Positions 4,043 to 23,572 of a stretch of DNA of 31,624 nt are shown here, in pieces (position 1 is the first letter of the stretch; each line of letters starts with the position of its first letter). Location of the stretch: NCBI GenBank assembly GCA_025786725.1, contig JAHLTZ010000084.1:1-31624 (forward strand), in the 5' to 3' direction. The notes under the pieces are model-generated. The model saw nothing but the letters and a program-made list of their open reading frames with translations. It did no database searches and had not been told where the DNA came from. The stretch is from Syncephalis fuscata (Eukaryota > Zoopagomycota > Zoopagomycetes > Zoopagales > Piptocephalidaceae). The translations under genes were made by a program, and so were the position numbers.

Positions 4043-4961
4043 ATTAAAGTAGCAATAAAAAATTACTAAGTAACAATTTTCTAGCCTATTTTTTATTTTA
4101 TTATGAAGTTGAAACGTGTGTAATGGCAGTAGAGTAGATAGATGTAAAACACGTTTCAATACTCTATATTACTTGGAATAACTCAAATGCAATAAAAAAA
4201 CGCTCATACTGTCAATATTTTTACTCTTCCAGCAATCGTTAGCAATAAATCAATCGAGCCAGTGCTGAGGTCTTACTGTGCGTTGTGTTAATGCATAACT
4301 CTGTAGACTGAGCGTCAAACATTTTTAGGCAGCAGCATTCTATTCACGCAGTATACTCATCCATCCTATCTGTCTGTACCACTTCATTCTAACCTGTATA
4401 CTCAGTGCAACACATGCTGGAAACGCACAGCCAAATGGCGCTGTTACCTTTATAGAACCAATCGAATTTAATTTGGAAGCATGTGGTGGACTGTGTAACA
4501 ATATTTTATTTTATTGATTGGTCTTGGACCACACATGTACCGTCTAATTGCCACATACACGTCATCTGAATGAGTAGGCGTAGGCTCATTAAAGAATACT
4601 AAAAAACTGAAATCATGCCTAGTTGTCCAAAATGTATTCCATAGAATCATAGAGATGCATCTTGATTGGTGTGAACTGTATCTGCAATGTGCTTTCTGCA
4701 GATTTTCTCTCTGGTGTAAAAGCATTCCATCCTTCACATGAATATACTTTTATTGGTAGAAATTGCATGCGCAGTCTATTCTGTGCAATAAAAAACATTC
4801 GCCTCTTCACTGTCGCCGTAAACTTAAATAGCTCACATCGATTTGCGATTGCTACTACACTTTGTCAACTCCTACACACACTCTCTCTTTTCTACTACAT
4901 ATTATTTACCACTACCATTATTTACTACATACTCTCTCTTTTGGTCTACTTGTCTATTCTA
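4043..4961. other. Intergenic region with pyrimidine-rich leader
   Basis: No gene that I can support. The last 120 bases are CT-rich, with two copies of a CTCTCTCTTTT-type tract (about 4881 and 4932), and look like the promoter or 5' untranslated leader of the microexon gene starting at 4978. Two short overlapping minus-strand frames at 4468-4810 may be a degraded coding relic but match nothing I know. Confidence 0.4.
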
Positions 4962-4976
4962 ACAAATCAACATTAC
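4962..4976 (+). promoter_or_regulatory. Shared 15-bp leader motif, copy 1
   Basis: The 15-mer ACAAATCAACATTAC ends one base before the ATG at 4978. The identical 15-mer occurs at 8171-8185 upstream of the Pro/Tyr repeat secreted protein. Its placement in both leaders suggests a common transcription-start, untranslated-leader or regulatory element. This is inferred from two copies only. Confidence 0.5.
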
Positions 4977-4977
4977 C

Positions 4978-6167
4978 ATGAATTTTTCCATTGCTACTGT
5001 CTGCACTTTCGTCGTGTTTTTTGTGTCCGGTGTAATCTTGGTGGATGCCATGCCATCCCGAGGTCGTGGTAATATGCTGTACTTATAAGCAACTATTGCA
5101 ATATTAACCGTTTAATATTTGTTTATATAAACCGTCTGGAACTGCAGGACTAGTCAGAAGTAAGGAATTTATATGGACAATTGTATATTTACTAATTTTA
5201 ATCCACTGTCGATATCGATTTAATAAATGTGTACTTGTAGGAGGTATACTATTTTTATAAATAAAATATACAAAGACTGACCACGCAGTATTTTCTGATG
5301 TAAATTACTAAACCAATATCAATAGATGAGCCACAAGGTATAGCACGACTATAAATTTTTGATTATATGGCATTACTAACAATGACTTAAAAACTTTATT
5401 ATTTATAGACAGTAAGTGACTTTAAAGCACAAATTAGTTAATATTTATGCATGTTATTATTAATAATTATTTCTAGATCGTAAGTGGCTTACATTATAAT
5501 TTCATCAATACCTATATATGTGTATTGTTTATAGTTTGTAAGTTATACTATGAAGCAGTGCTAGTAATACTTATATAAATGATATTGATTACTTATCATC
5601 CACAGTTCTTAAGTCGCATATGAAACTACTGCCAATATCACTGACATAAACTATTGCTTGCTAACTATTTATAGAACGTAAGTTGCCGGACAGGCCAACA
5701 CAAATGATATTTACACGTGGTATTGACAACTATTATTTGTAGACAGTAAGTTAAATTAAAATTGCTATAAGTAATATTTACATATGCTATTGCTAAACTA
5801 TTATCAATAGTTTGTAAGCTGCAATAAAAATTACTACCAGTGTTACTTATATATGTTAACAATCGAATTTTATTTATAGTTAGTAAGTTACATTAAATTT
5901 TAACACTACCGATGTTTACAAGTTTTATTGATAAACTATTATTTGTAGATCGTAAGTTGCATTACATTTTAATACCTTATAATTTATATATCCTACTACC
6001 TAATTCTTGTTTACAGAGAGTAAGTTACATAATAAGCTAGTTTTATTGATACTTAAACATGTTGCTGGTATTCTACTATTTATAGGAGGTAAGCTGAATT
6101 CTATCTGTTTACTTAATCTATTTTATATAAATCTGATCAATAATGTATGTTCATATGATTAGATTAA
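4978..6167 (+). CDS. Microexon gene for a 51-residue secreted peptide
   Basis: Proposed gene of 15 exons. Exon 1 (4978-5068) encodes a signal peptide (MNFSIATVCTFVVFFVSGVI, then LVDA) and MPSRGR, ending in phase 1. Then come a 12-nt exon 5148-5159, GAG 5241-5243, a 12-nt exon 5326-5337, and eleven 3-nt exons starting at 5409, 5477, 5535, 5606, 5675, 5743, 5811, 5880, 5949, 6017 and 6086. A last exon at 6163 completes an Asp codon and then reads TAA (6165-6167). All introns are phase 1. Nearly every microexon is directly preceded by TAG or CAG and followed by GTAAG(T/C/G) or GTATA. The exception is TTC at 5606-5608, followed by TTAAGT. The 156-nt spliced message has no internal stop: signal peptide, a short propeptide ending GLVRR, then DEPQDNLFQHIFNQRD. 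The Arg-Arg-Asp junction matches the Kex2-like RR-D sites in the 575-1169 gene. The exon 1 signal peptide and the splice-site series are seen directly. The full chain is inference, and the last exon and the TTC unit are the weakest parts. Function is unknown; a secreted effector or signalling peptide would fit. Confidence 0.62.
5409..6088 (+). repeat. Tandem ~69-bp array of single-codon microexon units
   Basis: Eleven triplets lie between perfect splice-site motifs at a spacing of 68, 58, 71, 69, 68, 68, 69, 69, 68 and 69 bases. In order they are ACA, ATC, TTT, TTC, AAC, ACA, TTT, TTA, ATC, AGA, GAG. Each unit is one short intron of about 65 nt. It starts GTAAGT(T/G), often followed by a RCAT-like stretch. 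Its middle is AT-rich, with ATTTACATATG-like words. It ends in a CTAAC/TAAACTATT branch-like site and TTATTTATAG. The intron bodies are diverged copies of one another, while the splice signals are nearly invariant and the enclosed triplet varies. One unit has TTAAGT instead of GTAAGT after the triplet (5609). Purely random occurrence of AGNNNGTAAG ten times in 700 bases is not plausible. Confidence 0.85.
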
Positions 6168-8204: not shown

Positions 8205-9368
8205 ATGTTTAGCAAGCGTACGACACTGGCCGCAATATTGCTTATCGCTGCAACAAGCAATGTTTTATTCGTCTCGGGTGCGCCATCTATAGATCACAAT
8301 GCATCAACTGATCAGCCTACTAGTACTGATGCACCTTTCTTAGGATCGAACTCCGATGCCAGCAATATCTTTAATGGCCAGCACAAAGACTGTTATGGCA
8401 ATTTTTTGAAAAAACGTTCTTATAATACTGGCTATGGTAACAATATACCTGTTCCAACCTATTCAAATCAATCACCTCCAGTATATGTACCAGAACCAAC
8501 CAAGTCATATACGTCTATGCCAACTAAAAGCACTCCAGCGACGGTATCAGAGTCGATTACAACGTATATACCTACGTTTACTCCAATATCCCATGCACCT
8601 GAGCCATCTAAGTCAAATACACCTGTACCTTCTTCACATAAGCCATATACGCCTGTGCCTGCGCCAAAGCCTCATGTACCTGCTCCACACAAGCCATATA
8701 CGCCTGTGCCTGCGCCAAAGCCTCATGTACCTGCTCCACATAAGCCATATACGCCTGTGCCTGCGCCAAAGCCTCATGTACCTGCTCCACATAAGCCATA
8801 TACGCCAGTACCTGCGCCAAAGCCTCATGTACCTGCTCCACATAAGCCATATACGCCTGTGCCTGCGCCAAAGCCTCATGTACCTGCTCCACATAAGCCA
8901 TATACGCCAGTACCTGCGCCAAAGCCTCATGTACCTGCTCCACATAAGCCATATACGCCTGTGCCTGCGCCAAAGCCTCATGTACCTGCTCCACATAAGC
9001 CATATACACCTTATTACCCAGTCAACCGATACGGTAATGGATACTCGCAGTATGGCTCATATGGTTCTGGTTCCTCAAGCGGCTCATATAATGGATACTC
9101 ACAATCGTATGACTCTCAATATGGCTCATATGGTTCTGGCTCATATGATTCTAGCTATTCAGCCTATCCATATAGTGGATATTCGCAATCTTCCGCATCT
9201 CGATATGGATCATATGGCTCTGGCTCATATGGTTCTGATTCTGGCTCATATGGTTTTGATTCTGGTTCATATGGCTCTAGCCATTCAGCCTATCCATATA
9301 GTGGATATTCGCAATCTTCCGCATCTCAATATGGATCATATGGCTCTGGCTCATACAGCGGATACTAG
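8205..9368 (+). CDS. Secreted Pro/Tyr-rich repeat protein (cell-wall or extracellular matrix type)
   Basis: Intronless 387-residue secreted protein. Residues 1-25 are a signal peptide ending FVSG before APSID. A Lys-Lys-Arg at 69-71 (NFLKKR then SYNTGY) is a likely Kex2 site that would release the long C-terminal part. Residues 72-144 are rich in Pro, Thr and Ser. Residues 145-263 are seven identical 17-residue repeats of the type HKPYTPVPAPKPHVPAP, followed by a partial eighth. Residues about 270-387 form a Gly/Ser/Tyr tail with repeated YGSYGSGSY and AYPYSGYSQSSAS motifs. There is no catalytic domain. The composition resembles structural wall glycoproteins and Tyr-crosslinkable matrix proteins; this is inference from composition, not from a recognised family. 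The ATG at 8205 is chosen because it begins a textbook signal peptide and follows the leader motif at 8171-8185. It lies in the same secreted-gene region as the genes at 575 and 4978. Confidence 0.85.
   Translation: MFSKRTTLAAILLIAATSNVLFVSGAPSIDHNASTDQPTSTDAPFLGSNSDASNIFNGQHKDCYGNFLKKRSYNTGYGNNIPVPTYSNQSPPVYVPEPTKSYTSMPTKSTPATVSESITTYIPTFTPISHAPEPSKSNTPVPSSHKPYTPVPAPKPHVPAPHKPYTPVPAPKPHVPAPHKPYTPVPAPKPHVPAPHKPYTPVPAPKPHVPAPHKPYTPVPAPKPHVPAPHKPYTPVPAPKPHVPAPHKPYTPVPAPKPHVPAPHKPYTPYYPVNRYGNGYSQYGSYGSGSSSGSYNGYSQSYDSQYGSYGSGSYDSSYSAYPYSGYSQSSASRYGSYGSGSYGSDSGSYGFDSGSYGSSHSAYPYSGYSQSSASQYGSYGSGSYSGY
8637..9011 (+). repeat. 51-bp tandem repeat, 7 full copies plus a partial one
   Basis: In-frame coding minisatellite inside the Pro/Tyr-rich protein. 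Seven complete 51-bp units (8637-8993) encode the same 17 residues. The partial eighth encodes HKPYTP and then diverges. Copies differ by only a few synonymous bases. Copies 4 and 6 share the CCAGTACCT variant where the others have CCTGTGCCT, which suggests recent duplication or unequal exchange of multi-copy blocks. Confidence 0.95.
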
Positions 9369-22541: not shown

Positions 22542-23572
22542 TCAAGGCCGCCGTGGACTTCTAGAACGATTAGGTGAACGCGATCGAGAATAGGATGGAC
22601 TGCGACCCCGCCGTCTATTATTATTTGGACTAGGACTATTGCTACGACGACGAGGCCTGCCTCTTGGTGATCCAGGCGACCTCGAGCTACTTATTGACCG
22701 ACTATAGGATCGGCGGCGATAGTGGTAGTTACCCGGACTACGTGAGCGTGCATTGCGTACATTCGATTGATTTTGCTCATAGGGCCGATAAGCATCGCCG
22801 CCACCACCACCACGATACCGTCCATTACGAAAACGATTATACCGTGATGGATAATAACTGTCACGGCCACCGCCTCTTGCGTTATAGCCACCACCATAAG
22901 ATCGCGATGGAGGAGACCGTCCTCGATAATCATTACCGCCACCTCTTCCATCACGCAAGGATGCAGACAATGGACCCGATACGGAATGACTATAACTATT
23001 CGAAGCCAGAGCAGATCGATAAAGAGTGACCACCAGCTCAACACCATCTAACTGCCCACCATGCATATACTCAATCGCCTTTTCAGCATCGGCCATCTTT
23101 TCATACTCGATTACCGCCTGTCCCCGATGGATATTCAGTCGCTCGACGCGCTGAAGCTCAACCGTGCGTATCGAGCCATAGGCGCCAAATATCTCTTTCA
23201 AATGGTCTTCCGTCACATTAATCGTCAGTTTGTTCACATTAATGGCCGGTCTAGGTGGCGGGGACCGTGAGCGGGAACGGGAGTGTGATCGCGATTGCGA
23301 AATAGATCGTGAAAAGGACCGATCGCGTGAGTAGCGTCGTCGACGTGGTCGACCACGCGACTGAGAACGAGGCGGTGAACGGCTCCGACTAAAGGAGCGC
23401 GATAACGAGCGCGATCTAGAACGCGATGAGAATGATCGTGATGATCGCGACATAGATCGCGACCGTGAACGCGATACTGATACAGGACGTGGCCTATTCA
23501 AGCAAAATAAAATGAATCAATTCTAGTATATATATATATATATACAATATACATAAAAGCATCGACTTACAT
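22542..23572 (-). CDS. RNPS1: RNPS1-like SR splicing protein
   Basis: RNA-binding protein with a Ser/Arg-rich domain, by similarity the RNPS1 subunit of the ASAP/exon-junction complex, acting in the nucleus in splicing and mRNA quality control. It has 317 residues. Residues 1-83 are dense RS/SR dipeptides. One RRM spans about residues 85-158 (INVNKLTINVTEDHLKEIFG, then GQAVIEYEKMADAEKAIEYM and HGGQLDGVELVV). An Arg/Gly/Tyr-rich section and a second RS domain end the protein. The coding region 22542-23493 has no ATG in frame before its first RS residues. A TAG acceptor at 23496-23494 and a GTAAGT donor at 23570-23565 would join AT (23572-23571) to G (23493), creating an ATG followed by PRPVSVS. 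So the start codon is probably interrupted by a 77-nt intron that also holds a (TA)n run. The alternative is initiation at an internal Met near residue 15. Confidence 0.85.
23527..23546. repeat. (TA)n microsatellite in intron
   Basis: About ten TA units, inside the proposed first intron of the RNPS1-like gene. Confidence 0.8.

Follow-up and report, generated by a model that had tools for sequence, protein, structure and literature searches.

Two animal systems and several kinds of unusual intron offer the closest described parallels to the gene considered here, which lies at positions 4978-6167 of a 31,624-nucleotide contig from the fungus Syncephalis fuscata (JAHLTZ010000084.1, forward strand). 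This whole contig (C283) is referred to as the window; genome searches were run on the 28.95-Mb assembly. The gene is predicted to encode a secreted peptide whose mature part is spread over a series of exons nearly all three nucleotides (nt) long. In schistosomes, the microexon genes (MEGs) combine a long 5' exon carrying the signal peptide with a centre of mostly symmetric microexons, and encode small secreted proteins; the microexons are shorter than 36 bp, and 26 of 33 are symmetric in MEGs 26-32 (PMC4671649). The bicycle genes of aphids, putative secreted effectors, have many tiny exons of constant phase (about 17 exons on average), with internal exons beginning at codon position 2, and a 'megacycle' gene uses more than 100 microexons for about 2000 residues, or about 20 codons per exon (PMC9168663).

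Ultra-short exons are also known singly. A 1-nt exon with transcript support is spliced in the fungus Fusarium (CYP621A; PMC12940212), and other isolated cases include a 1-nt exon in Arabidopsis, a 3-nt exon in Drosophila homothorax and neighbouring 5- and 12-nt exons in rice (PMC12940212, PMC8831610, PMC4674806, PMC7392893). Since such isolated exons are known, spliceosomes are able to join exons of 1-5 nt. One account mentions 3-bp exons in mitochondrial genes of fungi, a setting with other types of intron (PMC12308204). Fungi and other eukaryotes also have introner-like elements, introns copied within a genome (PMC4457414; PMC9860276), and at recursive splice sites, or ratchet points, an acceptor adjoins a donor and the intron is removed stepwise (PMC8605326).

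Compared by architecture, the fungal genes resemble MEGs in placing the signal peptide in a long 5' exon and, as predicted, the coding centre in mostly symmetric microexons below 36 bp; they differ in that almost all of these exons are exactly 3 nt, in having intron-free paralogues and in the mutual similarity of their introns. With bicycle genes they share predicted internal exons that start at codon position 2 (phase-1 introns), but those are insect genes with about 20 codons per exon, whereas here there is one codon per exon, and no homology is claimed. Like introners, the array introns are copies of each other, as seen within this family; unlike them, the copies are stacked every 3 nt in one gene family and in fixed phase. 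The isolated ultra-short exons come one or two to an otherwise ordinary gene, in contrast to the serial arrays here, and unlike at ratchet points three bases remain between acceptor and donor. The family would thus work like an extreme microexon gene, without membership in any animal family being claimed. No serial single-codon exons were found in a search of the open literature, with most subscription journals and all of bioRxiv outside its coverage; a preliminary description of this DNA likewise knew of no account of a serial array of 3-nt exons in a fungus.

Predicted exon structure of the window gene and its family

Direct reading and a rebuild from coordinates gave the same layout for 4978-6167(+): a 91-nt exon 1, fourteen small blocks (two of 12 nt and twelve of 3 nt) and a last exon that starts at 6163, separated by introns of 55-82 nt each (Table 1). 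Joined in phase 1, these blocks yield a 156-nt coding sequence for MNFSIATVCTFVVFFVSGVILVDAMPSRGRGLVRRDEPQDNLFQHIFNQRD followed by a stop, that is, 51 residues with no internal stop. The preliminary description had put forward this same chain of a signal-peptide exon and small blocks in constant phase 1, giving a stop-free 51-residue precursor, with a single exceptional donor and a VRR-D processing site. All of these features were recovered: the exception is the block at 5606-5608, which runs into TTAAGT where GT would be expected, and the processing site is the LVRR encoded by the first 12-nt and first 3-nt exons, which matches the putative site of the family. After the first four donors, those that follow are GTAAGT or GTAAGC, this block excepted. 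Of the 12 occurrences of the unit AGNNNGTAAG in the window, 10 lie inside 5407-6093; the shuffled mean was 3.16, and 12 or more were reached in 0 of 100 shuffles.

Further AGNNNGTAAG series, whose presence elsewhere in the same genome had also been raised, proved abundant. Adjacent AG-NNN-GTAAG pairs spaced 60-90 bases apart numbered 3288 over the whole genome (1410 + 1878), compared with 16 (9 + 7) for a reversed-pattern control. Units of 6 nt were found 91 times (control 2), and a 4-nt unit ahead of a regular one 8 times (control 2), 7 of these 8 being unlike array introns by eye; both searches demanded a TAG acceptor, the 3-nt search AG only. One apparent 4-nt unit, in array L045, was rejected and is really a 6-nt exon behind an upstream TAG acceptor.

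With the family signal-peptide exon as query, at least 150 places were returned (150 scored matches among 322 candidates), and exon 1 of the window gene gave 132 matches in its own genome. When listings were compared by hand, 15 of 22 places with TGG units lay within 3 kb downstream of a same-strand exon-1 match, and 7 did not. Exon 1 is 91-97 nt long and, judged by eye, signal-peptide-like in the window and in the family; the putative kexin site behind it reads LVRR, IVRR or LIRR in resolved members, with a second candidate site, KR, in L042 and L072. Many copies form near-identical pairs on separate contigs, and uncollapsed haplotypes may therefore inflate gene counts. Thirty exon-1 loci were fetched (L048-L077), comprising 22 arrays and 8 intron-free members (7 distinct, L057 and L058 being near-identical); having been taken as the top-scoring hits to exon 1 of an array, they do not form a fair sample. 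Donor-like sequence is retained behind exon 1 in 21 of the 22 fetched arrays and is changed in L067. Among 227 internal exons predicted in 11 arrays, 215 are 3 nt and 12 are 6 nt long, and the longest run, in L046, has 42 internal exons. The fungal Zn_clus domain (PF00172) had 7 matches above cut-off in this genome and none in 14 control genomes (at least three of them archaea), which supports a fungal source; for IFT57, the only match in the genome search was below its cut-off.

Intron-free paralogues, reading frame and cysteine motif

In the intron-free members no intron follows LVRR, and the frame continues into a cysteine-rich domain (e.g. LDAKACQDCSNGCALSSSGNPLAAWLCSRNCKKFCE in L053 and GPKNPAKCKECINECEGVPKPSMKEKCNKPGRCKAECA in L058), with C-x2-C-x3-C contiguous in 7 of 7 distinct members. 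Phase-1 joining produced this motif in 8 of 11 non-redundant Cys-class arrays, from chains built by a script that scored splice signals, exon lengths and stops and held no cysteine information. Joined peptides include GSYEECKACMVVCKDRGELS (L049), SRDPAKCEECRKRCPKVYG (L060), ASREECDDCRARCRKAGGLF (L062), AAKDSAGCRACLKRCMGHSG (L068) and DPGNCEACVKRCFDTHPFW (L077). The joined product of L040 is complete: GSVAECKTCLSHCTRGGDTRKYCKIHCSHNYFPAQC, with 36 residues and 6 cysteines, has the same length as that of intron-free L053. When exon order was shuffled in the 11 arrays, the motif appeared in a mean of 0.09 of them and a maximum of 2 over 2000 trials, and phases 0 and 2 gave it in 0 of 11. Cysteine makes up 39 of the 239 residues in the 11 phase-1 peptides (shuffled mean 20.3, maximum 31). 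Alignment of these peptides to the intron-free ones gave a summed score of 403 versus a mean of 293 and a maximum of 336 in 500 residue-shuffled trials, in which cysteine content was preserved.

The count of 11 was reached by setting aside near copies (L046, L050, L051, L063, L064 and L067, the last also lacking the usual exon-1 donor), L039, which is damaged, with its copy L048, and the Cys-free subgroup (L042, L043, L072 and the window gene). Also dropped were L054, L055 and L069, whose chains halt at a long intron and whose partial peptides DRCKDCVG and DPEQCKECY are too short; L073 and L076, with another cysteine pattern; and L075, which has no good chain.

Outside the mature part the two classes are also alike. 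Their 5' flanks are similar (8 intron-free members and 10 arrays compared). The likeness extends to the 3' end. Beyond the ATACAG acceptor, L039 and L040, both arrays, go on with AATAATCGATGG, to which GAATAATCGATGG corresponds in intron-free L053; for array L046, which continues with CATAATCAATGG, the counterpart in intron-free L071 is GCATAATCAATGG. Because these ends match, the last intron can be placed exactly behind base 1 of the last codon. The sequence of L045 at this junction is different. Since intron-free paralogues share with the arrays the promoter, signal peptide, LVRR, 3' end and Cys motif, the 3-nt blocks very probably serve as coding exons. The central proposal of the preliminary description, a secreted peptide from serial one-codon exons in phase 1, is thereby strongly supported, as the intron-free genes encode the motif predicted for most joined Cys-class arrays. 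For the four intron-free members tried, no Pfam family was found above cut-off, and the one member tried against solved structures gave no match. A genome search with the mature peptide of L040 also returned no hit, a negative that carries no information.

The zero stops in the script chains arise by construction and carry no weight. The frame was also followed in 261 distinct adjacent triplet pairs, taken from strict runs free of any frame model. Phase 1 contains a single stop, in L075, versus a shuffled mean of 16.4, with 0 of 2000 shuffles as low; phase 2 contains 13.

Several points weigh against this interpretation. Phase 0 likewise has 1 stop in the 261 pairs, so that stops alone cannot single out phase 1; what favours it over phase 0 is the Cys motif, together with the shuffles and the phase in which exon 1 ends. 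Exon chains and splicing are predicted from the DNA alone, and the chains are the output of our own scoring script; 9 of the 11 arrays run to the locus boundary at about 1.5 kb, so that only their first part is covered. Three of the 11 (L045, L052 and L061) have no exact motif, and their alignment to intron-free peptides is no better than shuffled. The 11 were moreover picked after their peptides were known; adding L042, L072, the window gene and L073/L076 brings the motif to 8 of 15, a total that covers every distinct array whose chain was of sufficient length to judge. Between near copies the triplets show no extra conservation (5 of 270 changed, against 110 of 6107 intron positions). Some copies are damaged: L039, L064 and L072 by an inserted element, L067 by loss of the usual exon-1 donor, and L075 by its in-frame stop.

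Two observations were made beside these counts. GC donors (GCAAG, GCGAG) occur occasionally within arrays L040, L049, L061 and L074, and counting the GCGAG unit of L040 changes its C-x2-C-x2-C to the C-x2-C-x3-C of the family. L073 and L076 (C91:3581 and C2:692406) encode a Trp-rich peptide, AGAEPKPCW..W.GWYPCP, of a class distinct from C-x2-C-x3-C; the two chains read AGAEPKPCWEPWRGWYPCP and a close relative of it.

Intron copies, alternative readings and proposed mechanism

Introns from the second on are of one kind, with a mean identity of 73.4%, where shuffled sequence gives 61.4% and other DNA of the window 59%. The first intron forms a kind of its own, 80% alike between arrays and about 65% alike to the other introns. 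In the 11 arrays, 192 of 227 internal donors are GTAAGT; such donors would suit sites that are helped little by a 3-nt exon. In four near-copy pairs, 4 changes were counted in 813 donor and acceptor positions versus the 110 in 6107 intron positions, a comparison in which splice sites had been picked for consensus fit in one copy, which favours a low count at these sites.

Tandem duplication of a triplet with its intron was rejected as the sole process, because triplets beside introns at least 88% alike are nearly as different as random ones: over 216 such unit pairs (91 within one array) the introns mismatch at 8.5% on average, while triplet mismatch is about 0.70 versus 0.72 for random pairs and identical triplets amount to 7-8% versus 3.7%. 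Some duplication is nevertheless favoured by identical neighbouring triplets (12 of 204 versus 6.9 in shuffles, 28 of 1000 shuffles being equally high) and by one extra unit near the end of L046 relative to L045, with GCC repeated. Random introner insertion was set aside, given that exon lengths are held at 3 or 6. On the plainest reading, intron sequence would be copied or homogenised among units while codons stay put under selection, with some unit duplication in addition. By count, pairs of introns at least 90% alike within the 11 arrays are commonest at a spacing of 4 units (9 of 172), followed by a spacing of 1 unit (7 of 205), which hints at block duplications; expressed as a fraction, a spacing of 13 units is comparable (4 of 73).

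Two further observations concern array introns. In L054, L055 and L069 one early intron is 885-897 nt long, compared with the usual 80 or so. A similar element with TTTTTATTTTGA lies within array introns of three loci (L039:7511-7923, also L064 and L072) and continues in L039 and L072 with AGCTTGTGAGCCCCCGCTGC; with a tRNA-like GGGTTCAAACC on the opposite strand and an apparent repeat of flanking AGTAATATTGTATATTA in L039, it looks like a short interspersed element.

Taken together, we consider it highly likely that the window gene is one of a large family of fungal genes for secreted peptides, probably processed by kexin, with the mature part in serial 3-nt exons. Were the arrays instead an intronic satellite, exon 1 would be spliced straight to the last exon, and the AG-NNN-GT units would be decoy or recursive sites whose triplets are absent from the mRNA. 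The intron copies are indeed alike to the degree of a diverged tandem repeat, and flies have recursive sites at which an acceptor adjoins a donor (PMC8605326), but that join would leave no mature peptide, while the intron-free paralogues have one, bearing the motif that the triplets encode. Nor is it clear why a satellite should avoid phase-1 stops or keep exon lengths at 3 or 6 nt, and we regard this reading as highly improbable. Very improbable, too, is that the arrays once coded and are now relics, leaving only the intron-free genes active. The insertions, lost donor and stop in several arrays, the window unit without a GT donor and the similar rates of change in triplets and introns of near copies would all fit decay; yet the arrays seem old, with introns about 73% alike, and most resolved Cys-class arrays have kept their frame, their splice sites and the order of their cysteines. 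Arrays also account for 22 of the 30 fetched exon-1 loci, though that sample is biased to matches of an array's exon 1.

If the arrays are coding, any unit might be skipped in frame and one gene might give many peptides. Constant phase 1 and symmetric exons would allow this, and the symmetric microexons of schistosomes have been taken as favouring alternative splicing (PMC4671649). A skip would, however, alter the codon at the join and break the Cys spacing fixed in 8 of 11 arrays, and some joins would create stops. Because skipping would break this spacing, the main product is more likely to be the complete form, and variable splicing appears unlikely. A separate question is whether the window gene in particular is damaged; it has a nearly identical partner at C289:696191-697570, 99% identical over 1380 bases. 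The GT donor is missing after 5608, and the 19-mer around 5606-5608 is found once in the genome, in the window only, despite that partner; skipping this block is predicted to bring a stop at the next join, after DEPQDNL. The remaining units, frame and stop are intact, on the other hand. We place the chances about even. The window copy may thus be damaged, or else unusual, and may not make a full product; the family-level conclusion is independent of it.

For the preferred reading, serial coding exons, the following mechanism is proposed. Exon 1 would carry the signal peptide, and in most of the members read it would extend through the pro-region as far as ...LVRR. The mature peptide would be spread over exons nearly all of 3 nt between introns mostly of 55-85 nt, typically GTAAGT...AATAG. 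Each phase-1 codon would consist of the last base of one 3-nt exon and the first two of the next. By intron definition, introns would be removed successively, each step lengthening the 5' exon by one codon, so that the growing upstream exon would provide the missing exon body; the sequential 5'-to-3' splicing that this involves is plausible. Kexin would cleave behind RR or KR. The typical product would be a disulfide-rich extracellular peptide, the window gene falling in a Cys-free subgroup; our best guess for its role, an even bet, is an extracellular antimicrobial or interaction peptide.

Evolution would most likely have proceeded through intron copies that grew in tandem and underwent ectopic conversion, a whole array being lost now and then via cDNA. 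In a tree of exon 1 and 5' flank (31 rows), intron-free members stand at about three spots among the arrays with weak support; its starred branches force just one change, and 1 of the 9 'free' rows (L042_1899) is another gene. It is harder to picture dozens of introns being gained time and again, at every codon, than arrays being lost repeatedly through cDNA. A bolder idea, possible but on balance doubtful, is a genome-scale system in which interchangeable intron copies between single codons would let residues be lost, gained or swapped singly by recombination between introns or by exon skipping with the frame kept, and arrays be turned into intron-free genes by their own cDNA. The exon, shrunk to one codon, would then be the unit in which peptides evolve.

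If spliced as predicted, these would be the most finely divided protein-coding genes known to us. They would then offer a natural test of the spliceosome on dozens of successive 3-nt exons (intron definition, removal order and fidelity), and equally of how introns may multiply within a single family of genes although the codons that they separate remain independent. The mature parts would probably escape standard annotation and read mapping, and for this reason a large secreted peptide repertoire of this fungus, perhaps of relatives too, may be invisible in gene sets.

The window gene and its surroundings

Table 1. Predicted features of the gene at 4978-6167, in window positions.
Feature	Position	Strand	Remarks
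5' flank / 5' untranslated region (UTR)	4848..4977	+	ends AACAAATCAACATTACC ahead of ATG; end similar to 5' flanks of array and intron-free members
Exon 1: signal peptide and start of pro-region	4978..5068	+	stops after codon base 1; donor GTAATA
12-nt exon GACTAGTCAGAA	5148..5159	+	donor GTAAGG; LVRR supplied jointly with 5241-5243 exon
3-nt exon GAG	5241..5243	+	donor GTATAC
12-nt exon ATGAGCCACAAG	5326..5337	+	donor GTATAG
3-nt exon ACA	5409..5411	+	
3-nt exon ATC	5477..5479	+	
3-nt exon TTT	5535..5537	+	
3-nt block TTC	5606..5608	+	next bases TTAAGT, without GT donor
3-nt exon AAC	5675..5677	+	
3-nt exon ACA	5743..5745	+	
3-nt exon TTT	5811..5813	+	
3-nt exon TTA	5880..5882	+	
3-nt exon ATC	5949..5951	+	
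3-nt exon AGA	6017..6019	+	
3-nt exon GAG	6086..6088	+	
Start of last exon, ATTAA	6163..6167	+	codon G|AT, stop TAA, 3' UTR beyond

The window gene is a Cys-free member of the family. In the exon-1 tree it clusters, on long branches (89/88), with L042 and L072, arrays without cysteine in the part read. The predicted product of L042 is ...LIRR AVAPLAKR VAEAAPPGFTQD, its 15-nt exon being read by eye, and that of L072 is ...LVRR DDAPLVKR GGAPFGFGQ...; L042 (C1:576392) terminates like the window gene, with D and then the stop. The 5' flank of the window gene is the most divergent of those compared, and its 3' end is without visible likeness to the family.

Two other features of the window were noted. 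An open reading frame at 8205-9368(+) encodes a protein that looks secreted, in which a 51-base repeat (17 residues, VPAPHKPYTPVPAPKPH) is present in 7.6 copies and the tail is rich in Gly, Ser and Tyr; a Pfam search at E 0.01 gave no match to it. At 22542-23501(-) lies a gene for an SR-rich protein with one RRM (E 4e-12), a candidate SR-like splicing factor on the same contig as the array.
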